Assembly (NCBI RefSeq): GCF_900120175.1
Contig: NZ_FQLF01000005.1
Span: 374,501-438,500, forward strand
Direction: 5' to 3'
DNA length: 64,000 nucleotides
Source: Oceanicoccus sp. KOV_DT_Chl
Lineage (GTDB): Bacteria; Pseudomonadota; Gammaproteobacteria; Pseudomonadales; Dasaniaceae
The notes under the pieces are model-generated. The model worked only from the letters and a program-made list of their open reading frames with translations. It was not told where the DNA came from and made no database searches. A program made the translations under genes and the position numbers. Positions within the stretch are counted from its first letter, which is position 1. Each line of letters opens with the position of its first letter. This document shows positions 1 through 18,675 of the stretch, one piece after another.

Positions 1-505
1 CCATTTGATACACCTTATCGAATTTCGATAGGTTTTTATGTATCCCCACATCAAACTCAATAATATGTAACGCCGCAAAAGCAAACAATAAATCATCAAA
101 ACTAACTTCCAACCCACCGATCTGATAAGCCAAACCCAATACATTAGTTGAAAACTGAAAAAACTGGCCACGCTCAAACTTACCTCTGGCCCAGCCATGA
201 CAGGAACGAATACGGGAAACAGGTGCGCGAACAGCGACAGCATAGGGCGCCGAATGCTGAAGCAGCGACTGAGAAATATCAATATTAAATTTTGAGTGAA
301 TCGCACCTATAACCTTATTTTCCTGCTCTTCCAGCTCCAGCATTTTATCGACAAAAGCAACAGCACTGAGATCATCCTTGGAACCCAAGGCTTGAGCATT
401 AGGAATGGACCTAGTGCCATGATAAGAGTGCATGCCAGCGATAGAGCTCAACGCGTTAGCCAAAAAAGTAGTAGCAGAAAAACCATTTGACTCTATATAA
501 AACAT
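1..505 (-). CDS. Sulfotransferase-like protein, 3' part outside the window
   Basis: An open frame starts at ATG 505 and runs off the left edge, giving about 168 residues. The N-terminus (FYIESNGFSATTFLANAL) resembles the 5'-phosphosulfate-binding loop of sulfotransferases, which bind PAPS and move a sulfuryl group to a hydroxyl or amino group of a carbohydrate or protein. A later stretch, AVRAPVSRIRSCHGWARG, could be the 3'-phosphate-binding segment (RxPxxRxxS). It is the last visible gene of the minus-strand modification block after flgL and starts 45 bases past the stop of the DUF1796 gene. The usual Gly/Lys-Thr/Ser loop is degenerate (GFSATT), so the assignment is by resemblance only. The acceptor is unknown; a flagellin glycan is inferred from position. 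Confidence 0.6.
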   Translation of the reverse strand, partial: MFYIESNGFSATTFLANALSSIAGMHSYHGTRSIPNAQALGSKDDLSAVAFVDKMLELEEQENKVIGAIHSKFNIDISQSLLQHSAPYAVAVRAPVSRIRSCHGWARGKFERGQFFQFSTNVLGLAYQIGGLEVSFDDLLFAFAALHIIEFDVGIHKNLSKFDKVYQM

Positions 506-550
506 AAGACCTCACAACCACAAAACATTAAAAGAATACTGAGAACAGCA

Positions 551-1261
551 TTAGAAAACAAAACTCTTGTAAAGCTCAAGAGCAAGTTGATTATCATCGG
601 CCTGAAGATACTGAACACCGGTATTTCTACCATTGGAAATCAACTTTATTGTAAAAATATTTTCCTCAGGAGCATCGCAGCTAATAGCAAGAGACTGATC
701 TGTATACTGGTCGATAAATACAAACTTTGCCAAAGAGTTTTTACTAGCAATAAAACTTATGCACTCACGATATGTATTATAAGTCTGCCCTAAGGGTACC
801 TGAAAAGACGCATCAAAACCTTTTGCCCAGCCAACTCTTTTTTCTGGCTCATTAACCAAAGTGCAAATAAAAACCGGAGGTATTACACCAACAATGGCAT
901 CCAAAAAACGCTTAACACAACGCACGTGGTAATCGTAATCCTCACCGGAAGCTAAAGGATTACGATGGTTAAACATAGAAGAGTGATACATCTTATGTCC
1001 AGCCGCAGCCCCATCTTTAACAGGATAAATCATCTCCTTATTCAGAAAAGTAGAAAAATCATCTTCTAAACAATGCTTTAGAATATCAGCAGAATTAAAT
1101 ATCCAATCAAATGGGCCGGAGAACTGCTTCGCCCCTGCCTGCTGCAAATACCAGGCAGTGTTACAATTTTGCCCAAGGGATAAAGGCAATATTTTTTCGC
1201 ACCCTAAAAAAACAGAGAGCTGGTCTTTAACAGAATTTAATTGTTGAGTAATTTCACTCAT
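551..1261 (-). CDS. DUF1796 putative papain-like cysteine peptidase family protein
   Basis: This 236-residue protein carries the DUF1796 (PF08795) signature: SLGQNCNTAWYLQQAG with Cys33, then SGPFDWI near residues 48-54, and a later His in MFNHRNP. The family is annotated as putative papain-like peptidases but also occurs in polysaccharide and glycosylation clusters, so its activity is uncertain. A longer frame opens with TTG at 1312 and would overlap the preceding sulfotransferase gene by 8 bases. ATG 1261 is preferred because GGGGTGG lies just upstream and homology begins soon after. No signal peptide or membrane segment is seen, so it is probably cytoplasmic. Lying between sulfotransferase genes, it probably serves the same surface-modification pathway. 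Confidence 0.7.
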   Translation of the reverse strand: MSEITQQLNSVKDQLSVFLGCEKILPLSLGQNCNTAWYLQQAGAKQFSGPFDWIFNSADILKHCLEDDFSTFLNKEMIYPVKDGAAAGHKMYHSSMFNHRNPLASGEDYDYHVRCVKRFLDAIVGVIPPVFICTLVNEPEKRVGWAKGFDASFQVPLGQTYNTYRECISFIASKNSLAKFVFIDQYTDQSLAISCDAPEENIFTIKLISNGRNTGVQYLQADDNQLALELYKSFVF

Positions 1262-1304
1262 AAAATAGCCACCCCATGTAAAAGCATAAAACCGATTGAC
1301 ACCA

Positions 1305-2060
1305 CTAACCAATCATTTTATAGCCAAAAGATTCGAACTCCTCTTTGTATATTTCATTAATTCTTTGAATCTGAGTCGGAGTAAATACTTCCTCGACAAC
1401 CAGATCAAGAGATGACATTCCTTTCTTATAGTGCTGGATAGGTTCGCGCTCCACACCACCAAAGCCCGTGACAATTTTTGCCACTTCGTCGACAAGGTTT
1501 TCGAACCGTACAATTCTAACGGTAGTAGAACCTGCGGGCGTTTTGTACATATCAATATTTTTGACCATACCAATCTGGCCAGCCGTAAACATACTGTTAA
1601 TTTGTAATTTTAAAACATCAATATCAGTTAGCATATCAGCGCCACTTTTCTTATATTCAGAAAAATTTAGCATCATATTAGCCAGCGAAATCACTTTTCT
1701 ATAAGGACATCTCTCGACTGCAAATACCGTCCAGTCCTGAGGAATATCGCCATAAGCATCCAATATCTCCCTGAGCGGCATATGGTTATAATACCGGCCT
1801 CTAGGGATCTGAATTGAAGCCAACTGATCCGGGTTAAGACCTGCCAGCTTTGCTATATATTCTGCATTTACGGCTTCATCAACTCCATAGTTCTGAGCCA
1901 CAGGCCAGCCTCTAAGCAATCGACTCTTTTCATCTATTGGTGTCACTGGTGTGATTATGTCTTGCTTGCCGCAAAACTGGGATAAATAAATCTCAATACT
2001 GGTACTGGCAACTTTATGCCCTTTAACAAATACAAATTTATTTTCTTTCGATAAAATCAT
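1305..2060 (-). CDS. Sulfotransferase family protein
   Basis: This 251-residue protein resembles the sulfotransferase-2 branch. KGHKVASTSIE (residues 13-23) fits the 5'-PSB loop (usual form PKxGxTS), and ERCPYRKVISLANMML matches the 3'-phosphate-binding segment with conserved Arg and Ser. Such enzymes transfer sulfate from PAPS onto hydroxyls of glycans. There is no signal peptide, so a cytosolic acceptor such as a nascent flagellin glycan or nucleotide-sugar-derived oligosaccharide is likely. It sits 36 bases after the upstream sulfotransferase gene in the same transcript direction. The coding sequence is visibly richer in A+T than the flg genes, which hints at acquisition by transfer. Acceptor specificity cannot be read from sequence. 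Confidence 0.75.
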   Translation of the reverse strand: MILSKENKFVFVKGHKVASTSIEIYLSQFCGKQDIITPVTPIDEKSRLLRGWPVAQNYGVDEAVNAEYIAKLAGLNPDQLASIQIPRGRYYNHMPLREILDAYGDIPQDWTVFAVERCPYRKVISLANMMLNFSEYKKSGADMLTDIDVLKLQINSMFTAGQIGMVKNIDMYKTPAGSTTVRIVRFENLVDEVAKIVTGFGGVEREPIQHYKKGMSSLDLVVEEVFTPTQIQRINEIYKEEFESFGYKMIG

Positions 2061-2096
2061 AATACAACCATATTATTAAGACTTGAAATGAGCTTA

Positions 2097-2825
2097 CTAA
2101 CCGCTGGCATACTCTTCAAACCAAGAGCGATCCAATTCATATCCATACTGAATCAATATATCAAAAAGCGCCGGGCATCTACTAAACTGTGAAAGCACAC
2201 GCTGTTTATGTTTTTCCTCACGCCAGCTATCAATTCGCGTCTTATCTACCGAACGAATAGAATTTAACGGTGCCTGTAACTGCGCAGGGATAGTACCCTG
2301 ATGAAAATCCTCAAAGCTATCTTTATAAGTAAAATCCAGCTCACACCCTAATCTTTGCTGAATACTAGCCGGATCCGAAACAAGGTCTTCAAACTTAACA
2401 AATAAAATATTCTTGCAGGCTTTAGTCTCATAGGCCTTAAAAATTGCATTATGAGTTTTAATAATTCCCGGATTAATATATTGAGGAGCCTTATTAGCGG
2501 ATATGAAATATTGATAGTCGTAGCCAATAAAATAATCATTGGCTACGCCTTGGTGACGGGACGTCATTATCGACCTAATATCTCTAACCAAAACAATAAG
2601 ATGAACATCTTTTTTATGCACATTGGCTTGGGGGATCTTGTCAATATCAAAAATATCTAGAGGACGCTTACTTACAACATTACCCTCACTCCCAAGCAGG
2701 GATAAAACTGGCGTTTCCTTATCCAGAAAAGCATAATTATCAACAGCATGTCGAAGCATGTTGTAAAACATTGTTGTTCCTGAGCGGGAATATCCTGCCA
2801 CTACAACATGAGACTTATTACTCAT
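2097..2825 (-). CDS. Sulfotransferase (P-loop type)
   Basis: This 242-residue protein has a textbook sulfotransferase PAPS loop at the N-terminus (VVVAGYSRSGTTMFYNML, residues 7-24) and the 3'-phosphate-binding stretch LVRDIRSIMTSRHQG near residues 78-93. It is shorter than typical eukaryotic enzymes but normal for bacterial ones. It starts 15 bases after the GT2-FkbM gene stop, so the two are probably co-transcribed and perhaps translationally linked. With the genes at 1305 and 1 it makes three sulfotransferase-like genes within 3 kb. No PAPS-synthesis genes (cysD/N/C) are visible here. The family call is firm; a role in sulfating flagellin or other surface glycan is inferred. Confidence 0.85.
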   Translation of the reverse strand: MSNKSHVVVAGYSRSGTTMFYNMLRHAVDNYAFLDKETPVLSLLGSEGNVVSKRPLDIFDIDKIPQANVHKKDVHLIVLVRDIRSIMTSRHQGVANDYFIGYDYQYFISANKAPQYINPGIIKTHNAIFKAYETKACKNILFVKFEDLVSDPASIQQRLGCELDFTYKDSFEDFHQGTIPAQLQAPLNSIRSVDKTRIDSWREEKHKQRVLSQFSRCPALFDILIQYGYELDRSWFEEYASG

Positions 2826-2840
2826 AAAATCCTATAAACC

Positions 2841-4361
2841 CTAAAGACTTCTTAACAAAAACCATTTTGCACCCTCACTAGAAACTGCCCCCAAGGCCGG
2901 ACTAATTTCACCACTAAGCAAATCAACCTCCATAGTCACATAAGAGCAGCCTTCAGGAAAAATGGCTTCTAATAACAAGCCGGTGGCCAAACCTGAGCGC
3001 GGCTCAACTTCAATGAAAATATCTGGAGTAAACTGGGCAATCAGCGGCCGCAATGACCTCAAGATAGATGCTGCAGGCATTCCTTTCGATAACAAAATTA
3101 AGTCCGGCGGAGCGGTATCCCCATCATCCACAATAGATATAATATCTACAGAATCAATACCACGATCAATAGAGTCTCTATCTCTAGCAGCATTAATTAC
3201 AATCGGCATATTTTCCGATTGTTCTTTAACACTCCACTCAACCGGTGCCGACGTAGAAGCTGGCAAAGCCTTAAAACACTTGATATATTCGCCCAGATTA
3301 TTTAGCTTAATATTTTTCTTACATCGTTCATAAGCCCAATTATTGGGCTCAAAAGAGACAACTGAAGCATTAGATATAGCGGCCATAACTATGTCAAAGA
3401 CACCTGTATAAGAACCTATATTATAAACAACCCTAGACTGACTTAGCTCTTTAATGCTCGTTAAAACTTGCATCAACGTGCTACTTTTTCGCCAAAAATT
3501 ATTTAACAACAAAACATCATCATTATTGCAATGAAATGATATCGACTTACCTTCAAGCTCAAGGCTTATATCATCATTAATCGGATAAGTTTTTGAAAGC
3601 TCTATGCATTGATCAATAGAAATATCAGCCATATCTTTTACTAACGTGGCTATTGATATTGAGCAGCCAGCGATTATTTCATTGCTTTTCTTCAACCGTC
3701 CTTGGTTATTGATCCGCTGTTTTTCTTTAGCTAATAATGCTTCAACCTGAACCCGCCACTGATGCCCATCTGCTGATCTTGGTCCTGTCGAATGACTCCC
3801 CCTTCGATTGGCAAAAAATATTTTATTTTGCTTAATGCATTTATTTTTTCGCCAAACATCCAAATAGTATTTAAAGTCCTCACCCGTATCCATATCTTTA
3901 TCGAAAGGAACCGTGAGGGCAATTTCGGTTTTAATAAAATGGCCCATTTGCAAAGTTATGAAAGGGTCATGTAACACCAACTCTTCAATAGTATTTATAT
4001 GAGGTAATTGCGGTAACCGAATATTGGCTTTTGTAGCATCAGGGCTTAACTCGGAAATCAGCCCCCATATCCCGTCATGACTGGCCAAGTACGGAGAAAC
4101 ATCTTTAAATGCGTTTGGAAGCATTAAATCGTCAGCATCCAAAAAAAATATCCAATCACAACCTAACTTCGAGGCCTTTTTAACCCCATTGTTTCGCGCG
4201 GTTGAACGGCCCAATTTAGCCTGTGTATCGTCGATGCTGACTAATTCTATAGAGGAAAATTCGCCCCGCGAATTTTTGAAAGCCTCTTCTACAGATTTTT
4301 TCATTTCCCTATAGAGGTCACTGTGACCTGGACCGATGGGAGTAATAACAGCACACTTCAT
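2841..4361 (-). CDS. Bifunctional GT2-like glycosyltransferase / FkbM-type methyltransferase fusion
   Basis: This 506-residue protein has two parts. The first ~240 residues are GT-A-like: CAVITPIGPGH at the start, RSTARNNGVKKA, and the nucleotide-sugar metal motif in IFFLDADDLM (DADD at residues 75-78). The C-terminal ~200 residues resemble FkbM methyltransferases: VYNIGSYTGVFDIVMAAI (SAM site), VVSFEPNN, and a late FIEVEP strand. It could add a sugar and then O-methylate the glycan. The motif GSYTG is weaker than the usual GANxG. It lies between the GT9-like gene (42-base gap) and a sulfotransferase gene (15-base gap). Such fusions occur in surface-glycan clusters; the substrate is not predictable. 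Confidence 0.75.
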   Translation of the reverse strand: MKCAVITPIGPGHSDLYREMKKSVEEAFKNSRGEFSSIELVSIDDTQAKLGRSTARNNGVKKASKLGCDWIFFLDADDLMLPNAFKDVSPYLASHDGIWGLISELSPDATKANIRLPQLPHINTIEELVLHDPFITLQMGHFIKTEIALTVPFDKDMDTGEDFKYYLDVWRKNKCIKQNKIFFANRRGSHSTGPRSADGHQWRVQVEALLAKEKQRINNQGRLKKSNEIIAGCSISIATLVKDMADISIDQCIELSKTYPINDDISLELEGKSISFHCNNDDVLLLNNFWRKSSTLMQVLTSIKELSQSRVVYNIGSYTGVFDIVMAAISNASVVSFEPNNWAYERCKKNIKLNNLGEYIKCFKALPASTSAPVEWSVKEQSENMPIVINAARDRDSIDRGIDSVDIISIVDDGDTAPPDLILLSKGMPAASILRSLRPLIAQFTPDIFIEVEPRSGLATGLLLEAIFPEGCSYVTMEVDLLSGEISPALGAVSSEGAKWFLLRSL

Positions 4362-4402
4362 TTATTAATCATCCTAAGGTCTAAAGCAGCTAGTTTCGCT
4401 GC

Positions 4403-5990
4403 CTATACATCGGTGATATCGGATAATGCCAGATTAACTTTCTGCATACACCCATCCCATGAGTCCAACTCAGAATTTCTAAACAAGCGCATACTCTGAT
4501 ACCACGGACTATCATCTCGCTCTAAAAACCATCGCCATTCAGCTGCCCTAGGTATCAGATTCCATATAGGAATACCAATTGCACCAGCTAGATGCGCATT
4601 AGTATTATCCGATGTGATATAAAGATCCAGCGCCGCCAAAAACGCCACAACGGTATCTATATCCGAGCGCAAATCAATTGCAGGGGTATATACACCTTGC
4701 GCATCCAGCGCTGCTATTTCTTCAGGGGTGGCATCGTACTGAAAGTTAATGAATTGACATTCTGGACGAGAAAATAATGGAGACCAAAGTGGTAGATCAA
4801 TAAACCTAGCATGATCACGGGTGGCTGATATACCACCGCGCCAACCAAAACCAATAAGTTTTTTATTTGGGAAGCGCTCTTTTAATTCTTTAGTATATTG
4901 CTCAACCAAGGTTTTATTTGGTTTTAAAAAAGCTTTTCCACTACCGAAGTCGTCGAAGCTTCTTAAGTAAAACGCCGGCAATGAGCCCATAGGCGAATGA
5001 TAATCATACTGGCCCGTAGAATTAGCTATTTCTTCAATACCCGCCTTATCGAATGAGAAAAAGTTTTCGATTTCAAAACTGCGCTTAAAAATATCTGCTA
5101 AACGCCTCTCCGCCATAACCGTCACTCTTGCGCCGGCGTCTACCAATCGAGGAATTAAACTACAGTACATCACCTGATCACCCAGGCCCTGATCAACCCA
5201 TAGAAAAATGTGCTTACCAGCTATTGGCTCATTATGCCACTGAGGAAAAGGCAAATTAAAACGCGCAATATTTTTCATTGACTCATGAAAACGCCATTCA
5301 TGATGCTGCCAACCCTCATCAAACATACCGACTTTCAACATAACATGCGCCAAGTTGATATGCGCCCCTAAATGATCAGGATTTATTTCTATAGCTTTAG
5401 CTAAATTGGTAACACCATCCACAAGATTCTCAATAGCAATATAACTCAAACCCAAATGAAAATATGGCTCGTCACGAGCGGGCTGAAGCTGTATTGCCAA
5501 TGTGGAGGAGGCAATAGAATCATGATAACGATTTGTTTTAAAATAACTTTCACCCAAGCCTAGTAGAGCATGAAAGTGTCTATCACCTGATGTGTCTTTT
5601 TCTAACAGAGATTCAAATATAGGAATTGAATCCTCAAAACGTTCCATTCTGTTTAACACCACACCTTTTACTGACTGTACGACCAAATTGTCCGGATTAT
5701 ATTTTTCCCCGATTTCAATTAGCTCCATAGCCTTGGTATGGGCATCGCGCAATGGACCGCTATCCAGCCAGAGCGTAATCTGAAGCCCTAACTCAGGCTT
5801 AATTTTACATGCTTTTTCAAAATACTCTTTAACCGGAGACCAGTAATCTGCATCTGCTGAAAACTTGGCAACATCAAGATAAACTTCTGCTTGTTGCGGC
5901 CGTGTATCAATCTTTTTTTATTTTTTTTGCTTCAATAAAGTCCTTCTCTTGGAGGGACGATTTAAGCTTGCTGAGTAACTTTGTGATCAT
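4403..5990 (-). pseudogene. TPR / GT9-like glycosyltransferase, frame broken near the N-terminus
   Basis: Most of the protein is in one frame: TPR-like helices first, then a GT9/heptosyltransferase-like domain with WVDQGLGDQVMYCSLIPRL and the donor-site motif ITSDNTNAHLAGAIGIP. That frame has only a TTG start at 5752, yet coding-like sequence continues upstream to a stop at 5918-5920. A second frame from ATG 5990 gives MITKLLSKLKSSLQEKDF and meets it at two A-runs (minus strand A8-T-A7, at 5913-5928). A +1 shift there joins them into about 525 residues. Proteins of this TPR-GT architecture are frequent next to flagellar genes and are thought to glycosylate flagellin. ATG 5990 lies only 23 bases past the flgL stop, supporting co-transcription. 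The break may be slippage, an assembly error or a lesion. Confidence 0.75.
5913..5928 (-). other. A-rich slippery run at the frame junction of the TPR-GT gene
   Basis: On the coding (minus) strand there are eight A, one T and seven A in a row, exactly where the two coding frames of the glycosyltransferase gene meet. Runs of this kind are classic sites of polymerase slippage and also of sequencing indels. Confidence 0.7.
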
Positions 5991-6013
5991 AAAATATTTT
6001 ACCAGTCCGAATA

Positions 6014-7342
6014 TTAGCGGAGGAAATTAAACAACGACAAAGTACTTATTTTAGCAAAACTCTGTTGCGCTGCCTCGAGCGTGAATGTTTCAAGGGTTAG
6101 TCTGCTCAAGGCTTCAGCATAATCCAGATCGCGTATTTCTGACAGTACTTCCTGATTTACCTGCTCCACACCTTCATGCAAGGTGCGCACGCTGTCCAAA
6201 GTGTTTTGCCGAGCACCGATTTGCGCCTTGATTTCAGACATTCTCGCTTCAGCATGATCCAGATTAATCAGAGTATCACTAAATAATCGATCCAATATCA
6301 ACTCATCAGCTACTGAATCGGTTAAGTTTTTCATCCCTTCAGATAGCTTACCCACTGTTGTCAGAACACTTTGTTTTTCGGTTGAGCCCACGTAAAACCG
6401 ATCACCAGTAGCAGGCGAGCCATTAATCGTAATCGACCAACCTAAGTTAGTAATATCAGGGCTGGCAGGCGCACCATCAATCGCGTTAGCGTCAATAACC
6501 ATGGGACTGCCGGTATCCAATATTGTCGCTAATGGCGTATCTAAAGTACCGTTATCCAGTTGATCGGCACGAGTATATATTGTGTAGAACGGCGCAGGTG
6601 GCAACCCTGCAGCATCATCATCGTAAATGACGATAAAATCATCCGGGTAGGCGTTGCGCTCGTAATTATTCAAATCATCCGCAGGATCGATCGTGACATC
6701 AATGCTGCTGGTACTGATAAAAGCGTTACCCGTGTTTCTCGCTTCAACAGTCGGCACGATGAGTTTCTGAGCGGATTCAATATCCACAAATATAGATTTA
6801 CCGCTGTCACTGATCGGAATAGTGGTGGAACTGGCAATCTGAACCTTACGTTGACCATCATCGCCGTTATAGATAAATTCACCAGCATCAGTTCGCTCAA
6901 AGGGCTTAACCGAGCCTTGAAACCCCGCAAAAATATATTCACCATTCACGTCCCGGGTATTGGCCAAATCCACTAATTCCTCTAAGCGGGTATCCAGTTC
7001 TGCAGCGATACCCTGACGGTCACTTTGAGTCAAAGCTAAACCACCACCCTGTATCGCCAACTCCCGAACTCTGACTAATAAATTTGAAACTTGCTGAATC
7101 TGATTCTCCGCCAGTGCCAAACGGTTTTCAACTGCATCGGCATTAGTGATGTACTGATTCAGTTGCGACAACTCCTGGTTGATTTGAATAATCCGCGCAG
7201 ATGCCACCGGGTCATCTGCAGGCGTAACAATGCGGCGACCACTGGAAACTTGCTGCTGGGTTTCAAAGGTTTGCTTTTGCGCCCGCAAAATCCCATTCAA
7301 GCTACTATTAAAACCTTGCAGGAAAGAAAATCTTACCGCCAT
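6014..7342 (-). CDS. flgL: Flagellar hook-filament junction protein FlgL (HAP3)
   Basis: This 442-residue protein has the flagellin-like N-terminus of FlgL: FSFLQGFNSSLNGILRAQKQ, then TQQQVSSGRRIVTPADDPVASA, the conserved coiled-coil entry of the D0/D1 domains. The matching C-terminal helix is RLTLETFTLEAAQQSFAKIS, ending NFLR. The variable middle (~180-330) is acidic and beta-rich, as expected for the surface-exposed D2 region. FlgL is secreted through the flagellar export apparatus and links the hook (through FlgK) to the flagellin filament. The start lies 22 bases after the flgK stop. It is the last canonical gene of the flgFGHIJKL run and is followed directly by the glycosyltransferase and sulfotransferase genes. 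Confidence 0.95.
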   Translation of the reverse strand: MAVRFSFLQGFNSSLNGILRAQKQTFETQQQVSSGRRIVTPADDPVASARIIQINQELSQLNQYITNADAVENRLALAENQIQQVSNLLVRVRELAIQGGGLALTQSDRQGIAAELDTRLEELVDLANTRDVNGEYIFAGFQGSVKPFERTDAGEFIYNGDDGQRKVQIASSTTIPISDSGKSIFVDIESAQKLIVPTVEARNTGNAFISTSSIDVTIDPADDLNNYERNAYPDDFIVIYDDDAAGLPPAPFYTIYTRADQLDNGTLDTPLATILDTGSPMVIDANAIDGAPASPDITNLGWSITINGSPATGDRFYVGSTEKQSVLTTVGKLSEGMKNLTDSVADELILDRLFSDTLINLDHAEARMSEIKAQIGARQNTLDSVRTLHEGVEQVNQEVLSEIRDLDYAEALSRLTLETFTLEAAQQSFAKISTLSLFNFLR

Positions 7343-7364
7343 GCTGATAACCCTCTGCCGACCA

Positions 7365-9434
7365 TCATCTCAATATACCTAACAGTGTATCGAAGATTTG
7401 CCGGGCAATGCTGATAATCTGTGCCGATGCATTATAGGACTGCTCAAACTTAATTAAATTCGCTGCTTCTTCATCCAAATTAACCCCGGACATCGAATCC
7501 CGACTTGCTTGCGATTGTAATAATAATGATTGTGCGGCATCACGCGCTACATCCGCTTGCGCAGACCGGGTACCCACCTCCTCAATCAAACTGCCATAGG
7601 AATTTTCAAAATTAGTTGAACCACCGTCAAGGATGTCAGCCTTACGAACCGCCCCCAAGGCTACTGCATTGCGGTTATCCGAGGAACCATTGGCATTAAA
7701 TTCTATTGTAAATTCATCACCAGCCTGTGGAATACCACTAATGGCGGCCTGAAAACCGAGATACCGATTAGGAATAGTGGTATCGGTTAAACTATTGGAA
7801 AATAAATTATTATTTTGCCCCGGGATAATAGTACCGGAAAATAAAACTTCTGGTGCTGACGGGTCCGACGCTTCATACATAGTGTAATCAGTCGCCGAAG
7901 TAAATCGAATTAACAACGGCGAAGCTAATATACCTGGAGCCGAATACAATGGGTTAGCCGGCGCAAAATCTGTACCTGCATCATCAACAATTTCCAACAT
8001 AACACCTGGCGTAATCAACCCACTACCGACATTACCGGAAGCCGCATCGGTTACGATAGGCGCCGCGTAGGCCAATTCCTGCACACGGGTCATTTCAACC
8101 GCCATATCCAAACCACCACTACGTGTTGGCCTGATATAAAAGCGATCATTATTGGCTAAAGCCGATTGGGTGCTGCCATCAATTGTAATAGTCACGCCAT
8201 CAACGGTGAAGCTTTGCGTATCTGTAGGTAAGGCTAAAGCCACACCATTAACCACAGTCACAGCATTATCACTTTTTCTGGTTATCTGGTAATCAAGCAC
8301 GCCGTCAGCGTTATTATCAATCACATTTAATTGATAATCGCTAGTGGTTAACTGGGTAATATCAGCGATAGTCGCAATGACAGATTGATTGGAAGGATCG
8401 GAATTATTAGAGTCTGTAAGTACACGCTGCCCAGGGATTTCACCCGCATTAATATCGCGAAAAATATCACCGCCGATGTTGCCATCCAGATCCACCCCCA
8501 AACTGTTCTGCTGATTCAGGCTATCAGCCAAACCTATGGATAAACGCCCTAACGAATTCACTACATCGCTGATTACATCATCGCGAAACTCTAACAAACC
8601 ACCTAATTTTCCGCCGCTGATAAAACTAGTAATAACCTGCGTCACGCCATTCTGATCAACAAAGGTAATATCATTATTGCCTAACTCATTAGGCGCAACT
8701 TCAACCCCCAGCATCGAGGCGTCGCCACCAATGACCAAGGGCTGGCCATTGCCGATAAAGACATCCAATGAATTGCCATTTTGCACGGTGGTTACCGAGA
8801 CCAGTTCAGCAAGTTGCCGCAGTAATTCATCGCGTTGATCCAATAATTGATTAGGCTGACCACCGCCCGAGCGACCTATTTCATCCGCAATTTTAACGTT
8901 TAATGCGGCGATACCACCAGACAAGGTGGAAACCTGTGTCGTCAATGAACTCATCTGAGCATTGACTAAATCAGACTGCTGTAACAATCGGCTTGTTAGG
9001 GTATTTATTCGCTGCGCTAAACCATCTGCTTCAGCCAATACGACCTGTCGCGATGGTTCCGACGTAGGATCCTGTGCACTGGCTTCAATAGCCGCAAAAA
9101 AATTACTGATAGCAGGCCCCAAACCACTAAATTCATCTGCTAGCAATGAATCCACCTGATCAATATTGGTGTTAAAAATATCCAGACTATTGAAACTGGC
9201 AGTATCTAATCGTACCTGCGTAACCAGAAATTGATCGACTACGCGAGTGATATCAGAAACGATACTCCCCGACCCGATAAAACCCGGACCACGCAACTGC
9301 TCGGGTAAGGTTTCCACCTCAACTCGCTGGCGGCTATAACTGGGCAAATCAGCATTGGCGATGTTGTTACCCGTCACCTGTAATGCTGTCTGACTATTAC
9401 TTAGACCACTAAGGCCAATACCCAACAAACCCAT
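7365..9434 (-). CDS. flgK: Flagellar hook-associated protein FlgK (HAP1)
   Basis: This 689-residue protein begins with the axial-protein signature (LGIGLSGLSNSQTALQVTGN, then NIANADLPSYSRQRVEVE) and ends with the paired helix (GVNLDEEAANLIKFEQSYNA, then SAQIISIARQIFDTLLGILR). The large variable central domain makes it longer than the E. coli protein (547) and similar to enlarged pseudomonad versions. FlgK assembles on the hook tip with FlgL to form the junction with the filament. The start codon is ATG, 45 bases after the flgJ stop. No export chaperone gene (flgN) is in the window. The assignment is secure from both termini and the order flgJ-K-L. Confidence 0.95.
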   Translation of the reverse strand: MGLLGIGLSGLSNSQTALQVTGNNIANADLPSYSRQRVEVETLPEQLRGPGFIGSGSIVSDITRVVDQFLVTQVRLDTASFNSLDIFNTNIDQVDSLLADEFSGLGPAISNFFAAIEASAQDPTSEPSRQVVLAEADGLAQRINTLTSRLLQQSDLVNAQMSSLTTQVSTLSGGIAALNVKIADEIGRSGGGQPNQLLDQRDELLRQLAELVSVTTVQNGNSLDVFIGNGQPLVIGGDASMLGVEVAPNELGNNDITFVDQNGVTQVITSFISGGKLGGLLEFRDDVISDVVNSLGRLSIGLADSLNQQNSLGVDLDGNIGGDIFRDINAGEIPGQRVLTDSNNSDPSNQSVIATIADITQLTTSDYQLNVIDNNADGVLDYQITRKSDNAVTVVNGVALALPTDTQSFTVDGVTITIDGSTQSALANNDRFYIRPTRSGGLDMAVEMTRVQELAYAAPIVTDAASGNVGSGLITPGVMLEIVDDAGTDFAPANPLYSAPGILASPLLIRFTSATDYTMYEASDPSAPEVLFSGTIIPGQNNNLFSNSLTDTTIPNRYLGFQAAISGIPQAGDEFTIEFNANGSSDNRNAVALGAVRKADILDGGSTNFENSYGSLIEEVGTRSAQADVARDAAQSLLLQSQASRDSMSGVNLDEEAANLIKFEQSYNASAQIISIARQIFDTLLGILR

Positions 9435-13249: not shown

Positions 13250-13992
13250 TTAGTTGCTGCGCAAAATTTGTGTAGCGGCGCTGGAATTGTCCTCAATGAC
13301 TTTCATCAATTTCACATTGACTTCAAATTGACGCGCCAGGGCCATGATCGTGGTGAGCTCATCAACCGGATTGGTGTTGCTGTTTTCCAAAAAACCGGAC
13401 TGTAAACGAATACTGGCATCCGGCACTTGTTCTTCGCCGTCTTTGCGACGTACCAAACCATCCACACCCTTCACCAGGTCCTGATAATCAGGTTTCACCA
13501 ACTTAATCCGGTCCACTGTAGACAGCACATCCGCCGGCTGGCCTGAAGGCTGAATAGTGATCGTGCCATCAGCTCCCAGCGTCACTTTGTCTGAAGGAGG
13601 CAACGCAATCGGGCCACCATTACCCAATACCGGCAAGTTGTTGCCGGTCAGCAACTGGCCACTGGGTCCAGTTTTAAATCCCCGGCACGAGTAAATGCCT
13701 CGCTACCATCTGGGGCCAATACTGCTATCCAACCATCGCCTTCGACGGCCAAGTCCAAATCCCGGCCCGTCTGGTTTAACGAGCCACGGTTGTAATCGGT
13801 ACCAGGTGTTTCGGTCATGCTATAAGCACGGGTACTGTAACCATCACCGTAATAGACGCCCATTGCCCTAGCCTGGGCAAAATCAGCCTGAAAACCGGTG
13901 GTATTGGCATTAGCAAGGTTATTAGCGTGAATCGCCTGATTGGCCATAATCTGCTGGCCCGCGGTCATCGCTACATAAATCGCTTTATCCAT
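13250..13992 (-). pseudogene. flgF: Flagellar proximal rod protein FlgF, single-base frameshift
   Basis: Two frames together make a complete FlgF. The N-terminal half starts at ATG 13992 (MDKAIYVAMTAGQQIMANQA), has a GGAG ribosome site just upstream, and runs to AFTRAGDLKLDP. The C-terminal half continues as SGQLLTGNNLPVLGNGGPIA and ends with LENSNTNPVDELTTIMALAR. They meet at a run of three C on the coding strand (13664-13666); one added C would restore D-P-S-G-Q. FlgF is a rod protein needed for flagellar assembly, so a true null would be expected to cost motility. All other flg genes here are intact and many other genes show similar homopolymer breaks, so an assembly error is the likelier cause. 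It is the first gene of the flgFGHIJKL transcript. Confidence 0.9.
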
Positions 13993-14113
13993 TCTGTTCT
14001 CCACTCATTCGAGCTTGTTGCTAGTAACCATCCGGCAAGCATGGGAAAAGCCTTGCCGCTTTTAGCACTATATCGGCCTATTTGAACCCAAAAAGCGCTG
14101 TTACAAGGTAATC

Positions 14114-14129
14114 AGCAAGAAGGATGCCA
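14114..14129 (-). promoter_or_regulatory. Sigma-54-type promoter upstream of flgF
   Basis: On the minus strand the 16-mer TGGCATCCTTCTTGCT matches the RpoN consensus TGGCAc(g)-N4-TTGCw, with the -24 GG and -12 GC at the correct spacing. It lies about 120 bases upstream of flgF. In Pseudomonas aeruginosa the flgFGHIJKL transcript is known to be RpoN dependent, so function and position agree. The two bases after TGGCA deviate (TC instead of CG). Confidence 0.75.
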
Positions 14130-14246
14130 ACGTGAAGAAAGTGGGCTAGCAGGGAGCTGACAAATTACCATTCGTTTAACTAATGACACAGACCGCGTTG
14201 CTTGCGCTATAAAGCAAATCCTTTAATTGCTACTCAGGCTAACTCT

Positions 14247-15101
14247 ATGAAAGTAACTGGTGCTGTATTTGATGAACCCGCTATTGCCAGTGAGGTGGAC
14301 GGCGTTGCGCGCGAGCGCTTTACTGCAGACGTCTGTAAAAAGATAGATGACCATAACTACCTGATTGATGGACAAGCGGTTGATTTTCCGGTGGTGGTCG
14401 CTGAGGCCTCCATGCTAATGAATGCTTTTTTAGTCGATGCCAAAGTCGCTCAGTCAATGATCGCTGATAGCGGCTTTCAAGTGGTGGAATTGTTCCCGGG
14501 CAAGGCCATCCTGCAATTGCTCTTTGTCGATTACCGCAAGAATGATCTGGGGGACTATAACGAAGGCGCGATTATTTTTCCGGTGCTGACTCCCGGCCAG
14601 AAAAAGCCTTTTCCCTTCTTCGGCACACTCAAACAAATGGGAGCAGGAACCTTGGGTAACTTTGTCTACCGGATGCCCGTCGATCAGGAATATACCACCC
14701 ATGCGGGCCGTTATATTTGGGGCTTTCCCAAATGGGTATCACGTGTGGATATTGAGTTTGAAGCGAAACGCGCAACAGGCCGCTTTATCGATGAAGGCGA
14801 GCTGGTCTATGCACTCGCAGCTAAAGCCGGTGGCACTGGTGCCTCCAAAGAGATGCGGGCACCATCGCTGGCGATTCGCGAAGGTAAAGCCTGGAAAACC
14901 TACGGCAGCAACTCCGGCAGCGGGGTTACTTTTTCTCTCGGTGGCGAGATGCCGGAAATTGGAGAAACGCACCCTTTGGCAAAAGAACTGCGCGCACTGG
15001 GATTACCCAAAAAGCCATTATTTAGTATTTCCATCGCCCAGACGGCAATGCGTTTTGAAGGGCCAGAGTCGGCAGCGATCGGCCAACCCTTTAGCAAATA
15101 A
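14247..15101 (+). CDS. Acetoacetate decarboxylase-like protein
   Basis: The protein fits the acetoacetate decarboxylase superfamily (PF06314) in length (284 residues from ATG 14247) and motif. GRYIWGFPKWVSRVDIEFEA corresponds to the segment holding the Schiff-base lysine of the clostridial enzyme (GxxxxGFPKK); the first Lys is present, while the second, which tunes its pKa, appears to be Trp. It may therefore be a family member with a different reaction on a beta-keto acid or related substrate. A longer frame starts at TTG 14202, but ATG 14247 follows an AGG-type site. The SDR and alpha/beta-hydrolase genes lie just downstream on the other strand, suggesting ketone or ring-cleavage metabolism. 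Confidence 0.75.
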   Translation: MKVTGAVFDEPAIASEVDGVARERFTADVCKKIDDHNYLIDGQAVDFPVVVAEASMLMNAFLVDAKVAQSMIADSGFQVVELFPGKAILQLLFVDYRKNDLGDYNEGAIIFPVLTPGQKKPFPFFGTLKQMGAGTLGNFVYRMPVDQEYTTHAGRYIWGFPKWVSRVDIEFEAKRATGRFIDEGELVYALAAKAGGTGASKEMRAPSLAIREGKAWKTYGSNSGSGVTFSLGGEMPEIGETHPLAKELRALGLPKKPLFSISIAQTAMRFEGPESAAIGQPFSK

Positions 15102-15202
15102 TAATCAGACGTTTATCTATGCAGCTGCATTTAAATGGCTGCCTCTAAAGAAGAGTGACGATAGACAGTCTTCTCAGTGCTGAAACGTTAACGGTGCTTT
15201 CC

Positions 15203-15241
15203 GACTCTTTATGTACCTTATAGAAGCGCGCATAAAGAGTC
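15203..15241. terminator. Stem-loop between convergent ADC-like and SDR genes
   Basis: GACTCTTTATG (15203-15213) pairs perfectly with CATAAAGAGTC (15231-15241) across a 17-base loop, between two convergent genes. There is no clear U-tract, so it may be a weak or bidirectional terminator. Confidence 0.4.
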
Positions 15242-15284
15242 AGCTAAGCTGCTTCAGCGCCAGACAGGGATACTGCACCAGCAA

Positions 15285-16073
15285 TTAATGGGGCATATGT
15301 TCGCCACCATTCACATCCAACTGCGCACCGGTAATCGCACAGGCATAATCCGATGCCAAAAAGATAACCGCTTTAGCGCAGTCAGCGTCATCGGGAATTT
15401 TGCCTAGCGGAATATTTTTCTCCACATCGGCAATCATCGCCTGCTTATCGGCGCCAGTATGTTTAGCCATCATATCGAAATAGCCTTCTACCGGAGGGCC
15501 CCACATCCAGCCCATATAAGTGGAGTTAACGCGGATATTATACTGACCCAATTCCGTAGCTAAATGTGCTGTGGCACTACTTAAGGCGGCCTTGGAGGCA
15601 CCATAGCCGCCTTGTGTCGCCAAAGGCTGTCGCGTCACCATGGTATTCACCATAACAATGGCACCCCCACCCTGTTCTTTCATTTGCGGGATGGCTTCCA
15701 ATGTTAAATTCATGGTGCCAAATAAATTGACATCCAATGCCGCTCGCCAACCATCCAGATTGGCTCTTTCAATGGGCTCAAAACTACCCGGGTTATAGGC
15801 GCTATTAATTAACGCATCGACGCGACCATATTTGGCAACTGCCTGCGACACCAGATTTTTACACTGCTCGCGATCACTAATATCAGTGGGAACCTTTATC
15901 AGTTCAGTATTCAAACCCAATGCGGCAACCGCCTTTTCAGCATCGTCCAACTTTGACGCGGTGCGTGCCGCCACCACTAATTTGGCGCCTTGAGCGGCAG
16001 CTTGTACCGCCAACTCAATACCCAGCCCCGGTCCAATACCGGACACAATAACCACTTTATCTTGTAGCAACAT
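15285..16073 (-). CDS. Short-chain dehydrogenase/reductase (SDR)
   Basis: This 262-residue protein is a classical SDR, which oxidises or reduces a hydroxyl/keto substrate with NAD(P)H. The cofactor loop SGIGPGLGIELAVQAAAQGA sits at residues ~11-30, and VVAART follows the second strand. The active site Tyr-Lys is in QGGYGASKAALSSAT, and the C-terminal half has VRVNSTY-type strand residues (NIRVNSTYMG). The substrate cannot be told. A GAGG ribosome site lies just upstream of the ATG. The alpha/beta hydrolase gene upstream on the same strand is about 100 bases away, so the two may be one operon. Confidence 0.88.
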   Translation of the reverse strand: MLLQDKVVIVSGIGPGLGIELAVQAAAQGAKLVVAARTASKLDDAEKAVAALGLNTELIKVPTDISDREQCKNLVSQAVAKYGRVDALINSAYNPGSFEPIERANLDGWRAALDVNLFGTMNLTLEAIPQMKEQGGGAIVMVNTMVTRQPLATQGGYGASKAALSSATAHLATELGQYNIRVNSTYMGWMWGPPVEGYFDMMAKHTGADKQAMIADVEKNIPLGKIPDDADCAKAVIFLASDYACAITGAQLDVNGGEHMPH

Positions 16074-16175
16074 AACTGAACCTCTTATTAATGTATTACG
16101 CTGTTTTTTCTTATACGCCCAAATTACTCAACCTGCCCAGGGTTAACCACACCTAAAAAGGCTAGGCTTGATAAT

Positions 16176-17039
16176 CTACTGGGGTTCCGACAATAAAAAA
16201 GCACTTACCACCCTTTCAAATGACTGCTTGCATTCAATCATTGCCCAGTGGCCACAATCAGGAAATATATGTAGCTCACAATTAGGGATTATTCTCATCG
16301 GCAACAACGCAATATCCATCGGGCTGACGCGATCATCCCGGCCCCACACGATGAGGGTCGGCGCCTGGATAGCGGCCAAATAAGCATAGGACTCTATACC
16401 CGCAGGCGATCGCCGAAAAGAGGCAATTTCGCCTATCGCTTCACGGGAGTATATTTTACGGGTGGTCGCCAACGTCATCGGATCCGTCGCTTGCTGATAA
16501 CGCTGATCAATTAGCGCATCTGTAACCAATGCCTGATCATAGACCATTGAACGCAGCCACTGCTCTATCCGCTCGCGGGTAGGATCTTCTGCAAAGGCCG
16601 TTAATAAATTTAAACCTTCACCTGGAAACGCTGAAAAAATATTCAAGCCAACACCACCGATACTCACTAAACGATGCACTTTTTCCGGAAAGCGTGCCGC
16701 AATATGCGAAGCGACAATGCCTCCCAATGAATTTCCGATGATATGGGCACGCTCAATCGATAATTTTTCCAGCACTGCCATCACCTGCTTGATACAAGCT
16801 TCAATCGGCGGTCCTTCCAGTGGGTCACTTTCTCCATAGCCGGGAAAATCAACTATCAAACAGCGAAAATGACGAGCAAAGAAATCCAGATTGCCCTGAT
16901 AATTTGCCCAACCAGTGACACCTGGGCCGGAGCCGTGTAACAACAGTAGCACTGGGCCAGCCCCTGCATCGTAGTAGCGCACACGGCCGTGCTCCAGGTT
17001 CAAATATTGACTGCTAGTTTCACTACTCACATTACGCAT
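16176..17039 (-). CDS. Alpha/beta hydrolase, meta-cleavage product hydrolase-like
   Basis: The fold motifs are clear: LLLLHGSGPGVTGWANYQGN (oxyanion HGxGPG), the nucleophile elbow IIGNSLGGIVASH with Ser, WGRDDRVSP for the acidic residue and DCGHWAMIE for the His. HGSGPG and GNSLGG are typical of MhpC/BphD/HsaD-type hydrolases, which cleave C-C bonds of ring-fission products. The start at 17081 gives 301 residues, but ATG 17039 (MRNVSSETSS) has an AAGGA ribosome site and is preferred (287 residues). With the neighbouring SDR and decarboxylase-like genes it suggests degradation of an aromatic or steroid-type compound, although no dioxygenase is in the window. Confidence 0.8.
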   Translation of the reverse strand: MRNVSSETSSQYLNLEHGRVRYYDAGAGPVLLLLHGSGPGVTGWANYQGNLDFFARHFRCLIVDFPGYGESDPLEGPPIEACIKQVMAVLEKLSIERAHIIGNSLGGIVASHIAARFPEKVHRLVSIGGVGLNIFSAFPGEGLNLLTAFAEDPTRERIEQWLRSMVYDQALVTDALIDQRYQQATDPMTLATTRKIYSREAIGEIASFRRSPAGIESYAYLAAIQAPTLIVWGRDDRVSPMDIALLPMRIIPNCELHIFPDCGHWAMIECKQSFERVVSAFLLSEPQ

Positions 17040-17273
17040 AAGAAATTCCTTATAGAAAAACGCGGTTAACATTTTGTGCATGGGCTTTAATCTACTTCAA
17101 CAGTGATTAAAGCTCAGGCAAATAAGACATCCGCCTCATTAGTCCGCTAATCTTACAAGTAAAAAACATTAAAGAATAAGCACAACATTGATAATTAATC
17201 CGCCGTTAATGTCGTCATTACAGCGCTATGCTATAAAATTGCCCAGTATGCTGTAGAACTTTTCGGCTAAGCC

Positions 17274-17322
17274 AGCATCTAGCATCTAGCATCTAGCATC
17301 TAGCATCTAGCATCTAGCATCT
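17274..17322. repeat. Seven-copy tandem heptamer repeat upstream of the RND pump
   Basis: The heptamer AGCATCT is repeated seven times without interruption. It lies in the untranslated region about 40 bases before the start of the membrane-fusion-protein gene and is not in a reading frame. The unit length is not a multiple of three. Such tandem repeats change copy number easily and could tune promoter or ribosome-site spacing. Confidence 0.9.
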
Positions 17323-17361
17323 AAGAAAGTTAAACCCTCTCCACTAGCAAAGGAAACAAAA

Positions 17362-18675
17362 GTGCCCGCCCATTACGGACAAGCTTTACGCCCTATTTTG
17401 ATTATTGTGATTGCGAGCTTAATCGCCTTTGGCTTTTATCTCAGCCGTCCCGCTCCTAAACACGCTGAGATAAACATCCAACCCTTATTAGTCAATGCTG
17501 CCAAAACAGTAAAACAGGATATCCGTATCTCAGTCCGGGCACAGGGTGCGGTGACGCCGCGCACACAAACTACGTTAGTGGCTGAAGTGTCCGGACGAGT
17601 GATTAAAGTTAGTGAAGCATTTAAAAGCGGCGGTTTTTTTAATGAAGGCGATATGTTGCTACGTATCGATCAACGCGACTACAAGGCCGATTTAAAACGG
17701 GCTGAAGCCGCTGTTGCTAGCGCCCGTTCAAATCTCGCCTCAGAACAAGGGATTGCCGAAGTCGCCTATCAGGACTGGATGAAATATAAAAGCTCCGTTA
17801 AACGCAGCCAGGCAGCAACTGATTTGGCATTGCGTAAACCGCAGCTGGAAGATGCAGAAGCGAAACTGGCTTCGGCATTAGCCGATTTAGATACTGCCAG
17901 AGACCAACTTGACCGCACGACTATCCGTGCGCCGTACACCGGTTTAATAAAAAGCAAAATGGTTGATATTGGTCAATACATCAATGTCGGCACTACAGTT
18001 GCAGAAACATTTGCTATCGATGTCGCGGAATTACGACTGGCTCTACCGGAAAGTAAATTAAACTATTTAGAGCTGCCATCGATTTCTGATCCAGAAAACA
18101 CCTTACAACCCAAGGTAGATTTAACTGCAGACATTGGCGGTAGTCGCCACCACTGGCAGGGTAACATTGTGCGCACCGAAGGTATTTTTGATGAACGCAG
18201 CCGGGTGTTATTTGCCGTTGCTGAAATAGAAGACCCCTATGGTTTACAACAACCAAGAGCACAAGCACTGCGCATCGGCACCTTTGTTGACGTCAACATC
18301 GAAGGCCGAGTGATCAATGATTTAATCGCACTGCCTCGACACATTTTACGTGCAGGTAACCAACTATGGGTGATTGATCAACAGCAGCGCCTGCAAAATC
18401 GTCAAGTGAGCGTGCTGCGCACCGAAGGATCAAATATTTATATTACTAGCGGTCTGGATGAAGGCGAGTTGGTTTGCCTTTCAACAATTAGTGCCGCAGT
18501 GCCCGGGACTCAGGTTCGTATTGCTGAAACCACTCCTACTGACCACCAACCCAGCATTCCTCCAATTCCTGAAGACGTTCCTGCCAATCAGGAGAACGGT
18601 TTAGAAATAGCGCCAGCACCAGATCAAGCTCAACCTTTAGATCCTAAAACAGCACATAAGGATCAAGCAGCATGA
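17362..18675 (+). CDS. RND efflux periplasmic adaptor (membrane fusion protein)
   Basis: This 437-residue protein has an N-terminal membrane anchor (LRPILIIVIASLIAFGFYLS). After it come a lipoyl-like region (VTPRTQTTLVAEVSGRVIKV), a coiled-coil hairpin (RAEAAVASARSNLASEQG, then DAEAKLASALADLDTARDQL), a beta-barrel region (TIRAPYTGLIKSKMVDIGQY) and a Pro/Gln-rich tail. It would connect the inner-membrane pump to an outer-membrane channel. No TolC-like gene is nearby. The start is GTG, preceded by AAAGGAAA. Its stop overlaps the pump gene start (ATGA), so the two are translationally coupled. Confidence 0.9.
   Translation: MPAHYGQALRPILIIVIASLIAFGFYLSRPAPKHAEINIQPLLVNAAKTVKQDIRISVRAQGAVTPRTQTTLVAEVSGRVIKVSEAFKSGGFFNEGDMLLRIDQRDYKADLKRAEAAVASARSNLASEQGIAEVAYQDWMKYKSSVKRSQAATDLALRKPQLEDAEAKLASALADLDTARDQLDRTTIRAPYTGLIKSKMVDIGQYINVGTTVAETFAIDVAELRLALPESKLNYLELPSISDPENTLQPKVDLTADIGGSRHHWQGNIVRTEGIFDERSRVLFAVAEIEDPYGLQQPRAQALRIGTFVDVNIEGRVINDLIALPRHILRAGNQLWVIDQQQRLQNRQVSVLRTEGSNIYITSGLDEGELVCLSTISAAVPGTQVRIAETTPTDHQPSIPPIPEDVPANQENGLEIAPAPDQAQPLDPKTAHKDQAA

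Follow-up and report, generated by a model that had tools for sequence, protein, structure and literature searches.

The genes directly behind flgL in the genome of Oceanicoccus sp. KOV_DT_Chl probably form a flagellin-modification island of the FlmG-like TPR-GT type, placed in a hypervariable slot and directing a glycan that would be sulfated in the cytoplasm before export. The genome amounts to 4.83 Mb in 7 contigs, and the stretch of 64 000 nucleotides that was analysed, called the window here, covers bases 374501–438500 of contig 5. On the minus strand the gene order is flgK, flgL, TPR-GT, GT2-FkbM, ST-B, ST-A, DUF1796 and ST-C. Intergenic gaps in the island are approximately 15–50 bases and every gene behind flgL lies on the same strand, an arrangement that fits co-transcription. 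The features, in window positions, are as follows.

6014..7342, minus strand: flgL, hook-filament junction gene and right-hand border of the island (Pfam Flagellin_N and Flagellin_C)
about 5990-4403, minus strand: TPR-GT (GT9/GT41-like), proposed flagellin O-glycosyltransferase, frame interrupted near its start (TPR repeats in Pfam; relatives in the slot)
5907..5930, minus strand: A8-T-A7 tract with one-base frameshift and resulting TGA (direct reading; comparison with the intact G006 protein)
2841..4361, minus strand: GT2 glycosyltransferase fused to FkbM-type methyltransferase (Pfam GT2; NCBIfam fkbM_fam 38.1 bits, cut-off 37.7)
2097..2825, minus strand: ST-B, sulfotransferase (Pfam Sulfotransfer_1 37.2 bits, cut-off 22)
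1305..2060, minus strand: ST-A, sulfotransferase, Sulfotransfer_2-like (Pfam 21.0 bits, cut-off 22; conserved motifs; fold)
about 551..1261, minus strand: DUF1796 protein (PF08795 33.1 bits, cut-off 23; start at the ATG giving MSEITQQL)
2..505, plus 198 bases past the left edge of the window (L004:2304-3005), minus strand: ST-C, sulfotransferase-like by motif only (complete frame of 233 aa)

Setting and variability of the slot

Left of ST-C, on the part of the contig beyond the left edge of the window, fliC, flaG, fliD and a fliT-like gene were found on the plus strand, with a fliS-like gene, a GGDEF-EAL response regulator and fleQ ahead of them. The island occupies the gap between flgK-flgL and fliC-flaG-fliD-fliT, up to the fliT-like gene, and both glycosyltransferase genes (TPR-GT and GT2-FkbM) sit between flgL and fliT-fliD-fliC; this gap is the usual site of flagellin-modification genes. 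The sequence-only reading had proposed looking for flagellin further left, and fliC lies just past the window's edge. The genes that it named behind flgL were all correctly placed on the minus strand, but ST-C, which it took for a partial gene, is complete in the genome with 233 aa, and the TPR-GT frame is broken. Two more flagellin-like matches, perhaps extra flagellin genes, were seen away from the locus in the same genome (C2:393860-394435 and C2:580569-580952).

GC content was 0.38–0.43 in the island, against 0.46 for flgKL and 0.456 for the window as a whole, in agreement with the earlier remark that the island is richer in A+T than the flg genes. Import, which had been suggested on this ground, is plausible in view of the low GC and of the absence of the sulfotransferases from relatives; mobility genes, however, were not seen within the island. 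According to the gene list and Pfam, the island also has neither a polysaccharide polymerase nor a flippase or ABC exporter, and pseudaminic acid genes were absent from it. Promoter- and terminator-like matches were not more numerous than in shuffled sequences. None of the island proteins had a strong 19-residue hydrophobic segment or clear membrane span, the sole borderline case being the DUF1796 protein (1.92).

For comparison, 80 flgL-side regions from the order and seven from the genus and family were examined. The next filament gene after flgL was visible in 70 loci, 30 of which carried at least one open reading frame of at least 150 aa in between; the Pfam scan of 117 proteins from these intervals was evaluated among the 25 commonest families, a depth at which rare sulfotransferases may be missed. 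Within the genus, the fliD-flgL gap of G001 and G004 holds a fliT-like gene only, the slot of G006 holds a TPR-GT (60% identical to that of the window) together with a polysaccharide pyruvyltransferase, and the slots of G002 and G007 hold a TPR-GT (38–40%; 38% in G002), a protein matching FkbM below threshold, a small protein and a methyltransferase. No sulfotransferase was found in the slot of the same-genus relatives. Because the slot is either empty or variously filled within the genus, it is best described as a hypervariable flagellin-decoration slot, and the variation in island content among close relatives is that expected of a flagellin glycosylation island.

Relatives of the TPR-GT were located near flagellin genes in several families. 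In L144 (G033), positions 1507-4206 between flgL and fliC encode one protein of 899 aa that combines TPR repeats with a GT9 match below threshold and a pyruvyltransferase domain; the TPR-GT/polysaccharide pyruvyltransferase pair is thus fused in G033 and encoded by separate genes in G006. In G526, which belongs to another family, a relative of GT2-FkbM (35% identity, E 6e-69) is located next to a TPR-GT in the flgL-fliC interval, and a similar gene again adjoins a TPR-GT in G461. Together with the adjoining fliC-flaG-fliD-fliT block and the variable slot, these recurrences strongly support the flagellar setting that had been claimed for the glycosyltransferases.

Interruption of the TPR-GT gene

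TPR repeats of the TPR-GT were detected with Pfam; its glycosyltransferase part scored below every Pfam cut-off and was assigned from the relatives in L144 (just under the GT9 cut-off) and L151 (GT41). A profile scan of the named genomes gave matches for the TPR-GT only in two Oceanicoccus MAGs. The A8-T-A7 stretch near the gene start occupies minus-strand positions 5913-5928, with A7 at 5919-5913. The frame from the ATG at 5990 encodes MITKLLSKLKSSLQEKDFIEAKKIKKD and then meets a TGA stop (5909-5907); the main frame resumes after a one-base slip in A7. The intact TPR-GT of G006 starts MIKKLLSKLEQTLKDGDVNEAKKIIAKIHKRPQMPEVYLDIA and runs on, its window counterpart being one base out of frame after A7. 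An internal TTG at 5752 would yield a protein without about the first 80 residues. RNA structure near the frameshift was in no way unusual.

The A8-T-A7 site is possibly a slippage site, a mutation or an assembly error. The break in the TPR-GT frame may leave the system silent in the sequenced strain, unless the frameshift is erroneous or bypassed. The island could in that case be decaying or switched off, either because the A tract slips reversibly or because loss is under way, with the attaching enzyme disabled and the flagellin of this strain undecorated. We regard this as rather unlikely, despite the one-base frameshift in A8-T-A7 opposite an intact relative in G006: the other island frames are all intact, a state better explained by recent loss, reversible switching or an assembly error than by long decay, and A7 is short in comparison with known phase-variation tracts.

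The sulfotransferases and their proposed substrate

The sequence-only reading had counted three sulfotransferases, of which ST-B and ST-A are solid and ST-C resembles one at its motifs only. In ST-B, the profile match is accompanied by the PAPS-binding motifs RSGTT and RD...S, which are kept across its family. ST-A falls just under the Pfam cut-off (21.0 versus 22 bits), and a fold comparison was therefore needed. In an alignment of its nine-sequence family K..K....S and R.P.....S were conserved, and a model predicted from this alignment was usable (mean pLDDT 78). Sulfotransferases made up 50/50 of the structural matches listed for this model, with Z values of 6.9–8.3 that are middling by themselves, the argument being the uniformity of the matches listed; Foldseek also placed sulfotransferases on top, with a weak best E of 0.012. 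ST-C gave no match in Pfam, NCBIfam, PDB or with the ST-A family profile, and its single-sequence model had a pLDDT of 31, too low for use; without profile match or relative in the genomes searched it is called sulfotransferase-like by motif alone. Chance clustering of three ST-type genes within five same-strand genes is judged implausible. The genome encodes an APS kinase, the enzyme by which PAPS is usually supplied.

Searches of 58 near genomes (own genome excluded) returned two relatives of ST-A and none of ST-B or ST-C; among 370 genomes of the class, own genome again excluded, there were 6 for ST-A, 6 for ST-B and 0 for ST-C. Among the regions fetched, the loci of the ST-A relatives (at least six other genomes) were polysaccharide-type or unrelated and none was flagellar, and the same applied to the loci of the ST-B relatives. 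ST-A and ST-C had no match in phages, ST-B had none in plasmids and ST-C none in viral contigs. In the genus and order, Sulfotransfer_3 matches fall on numerous long open frames (about 500–800 aa), with 11 matches counted in the own genome; this family is too frequent across the order to be informative about co-location.

Other sulfotransferases were encountered in flagellar clusters elsewhere. In G439, from a different family, a TPR-GT with an open frame (25% identical to that of the window), a GT8-like gene and two sulfotransferases are inserted between fleQ and fleS-fleR-fliE-fliF (L137, G439:C1:963500-982517). One of the two is Sulfotransfer_2-like (21.3 bits, cut-off 22) and the other, on the opposite strand, matches Sulfotransfer_1 (81.7 bits); this insert is missing in the same-genus relatives G488 and G529. 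The L137 cluster also encodes a GSCFA-family protein between two fliC copies, and the L137 features named here occupy 4296-8534 and 15028-16029. In L151 (G524), a TPR-GT41, a hexapeptide transferase and an ST-like gene occupy 13891-18282 between fliC and flaG; the product of the last has a sulfotransferase-like P-loop and no Pfam match. Phmmer found no match between the G439 sulfotransferases and ST-A or ST-B, and for this reason the association appears to have been put together more than once. With the ST-B family profile, the Sulfotransfer_1 protein of G439 was reached at E 0.0006. The motif and phmmer screens each missed some of the G439 and G524 sulfotransferase genes, which were found by reading neighbourhoods, and counts of recurrence are accordingly lower bounds.

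That the flagellar cluster of G439 independently combines a TPR-GT with two sulfotransferases strengthens the reading of a sulfated flagellin glycan. This combination also argues against a role of the sulfotransferases in another surface glycan (O-antigen or capsule), with a chance landing in an insertion hotspot. That role would accord with the other genomic relatives of ST-A, which are mostly found among polysaccharide-type glycosyltransferase genes, but the island is devoid of polysaccharide export or polymerisation genes and its sulfotransferase genes are packed behind flgL together with the TPR-GT, so that we consider it improbable. Direct sulfation of Tyr in flagellin or another protein, of the RaxST/TPST kind, is very improbable: tyrosylprotein sulfotransferases do occur among the structural matches of ST-A, but glycan sulfotransferases rank equally high, the rest of the island consists of glycan genes, and the fliC product has two Tyr in 515 residues and a middle domain of about 30% Ser+Thr.

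Relation to known systems and meaning

In FlmG of Caulobacter crescentus, a TPR domain binds flagellin and a GT domain attaches the sugar (PMC7591256). The TPR-GT of the window would correspond to this soluble enzyme, which serves flagellin in the cytoplasm and in which TPR repeats form the N-terminal and a GT-B type glycosyltransferase the C-terminal part (PMC7591256), the GT part of the window protein being taken from its relatives. FlmG uses pseudaminic acid, whereas the window island pairs its TPR-GT with GT2-FkbM and sulfotransferases, and the text of the FlmG study does not contain the term 'sulf' (PMC7591256). By analogy with FlmG, the TPR part would bind new flagellin in the cytoplasm and the GT part would attach the initial sugar to Ser/Thr residues in the exposed middle domain. 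GT2-FkbM, judged by its domains, may extend and methylate the glycan, onto which soluble ST-B and ST-A, perhaps with ST-C, would transfer sulfate from PAPS before flagellin export, giving a filament surface with negative charge.

The flagellin glycosylation islands of Pseudomonas, Enterobacteriaceae and Aeromonas are likewise variable insertions next to flagellin genes that encode glycosyltransferases and methyltransferases, and the term 'sulf' was not found in the main texts of the papers that describe them (PMC3927599, PMC4875605, PMC7874193). The archaellin and S-layer of Halobacterium salinarum carry a sulfated N-glycan (PMC11980604, where Wieland 1985 is cited). Two sulfotransferases decorate the filament-protein glycan there, as is proposed for the island in the window, but the Halobacterium system is archaeal and N-linked, with an unrelated pathway and an unrelated filament, and loss of sulfation altered motility little (PMC11980604). 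Sulfated flagellin from Bacteria was not found in the full-text literature, a scope that leaves out most subscription papers; what came up was the Halobacterium work and a paper on giant viruses. The statement of the sequence-only reading that this is not a described system holds for Bacteria in the literature searched, but Halobacterium is well known for a sulfated glycan on its archaellin.

More tentatively, and with somewhat less than even confidence, we suggest that the flagella of some gammaproteobacteria from the sea bear a flagellin glycan with sulfate groups. Exchangeable cassettes of TPR-GT and sulfotransferase genes, assembled independently in several families, would make this glycan; the resulting charged filament surface would be convergent with that of sulfated archaellin, and in the present genome the poly-A tract of the TPR-GT gene might act as a switch. 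Motility, phage attachment and the way in which other organisms recognise a cell are all shaped by flagellin glycans. Near relatives that carry no cargo, a pyruvyltransferase, methyltransferases or sulfotransferases in the slot form a natural series for comparison, the pyruvyltransferase being another route to negative charge. If the proposal is true, sulfate would place a strong negative charge on the filament in seawater, and sulfated swimming filaments would extend from Archaea to Bacteria.
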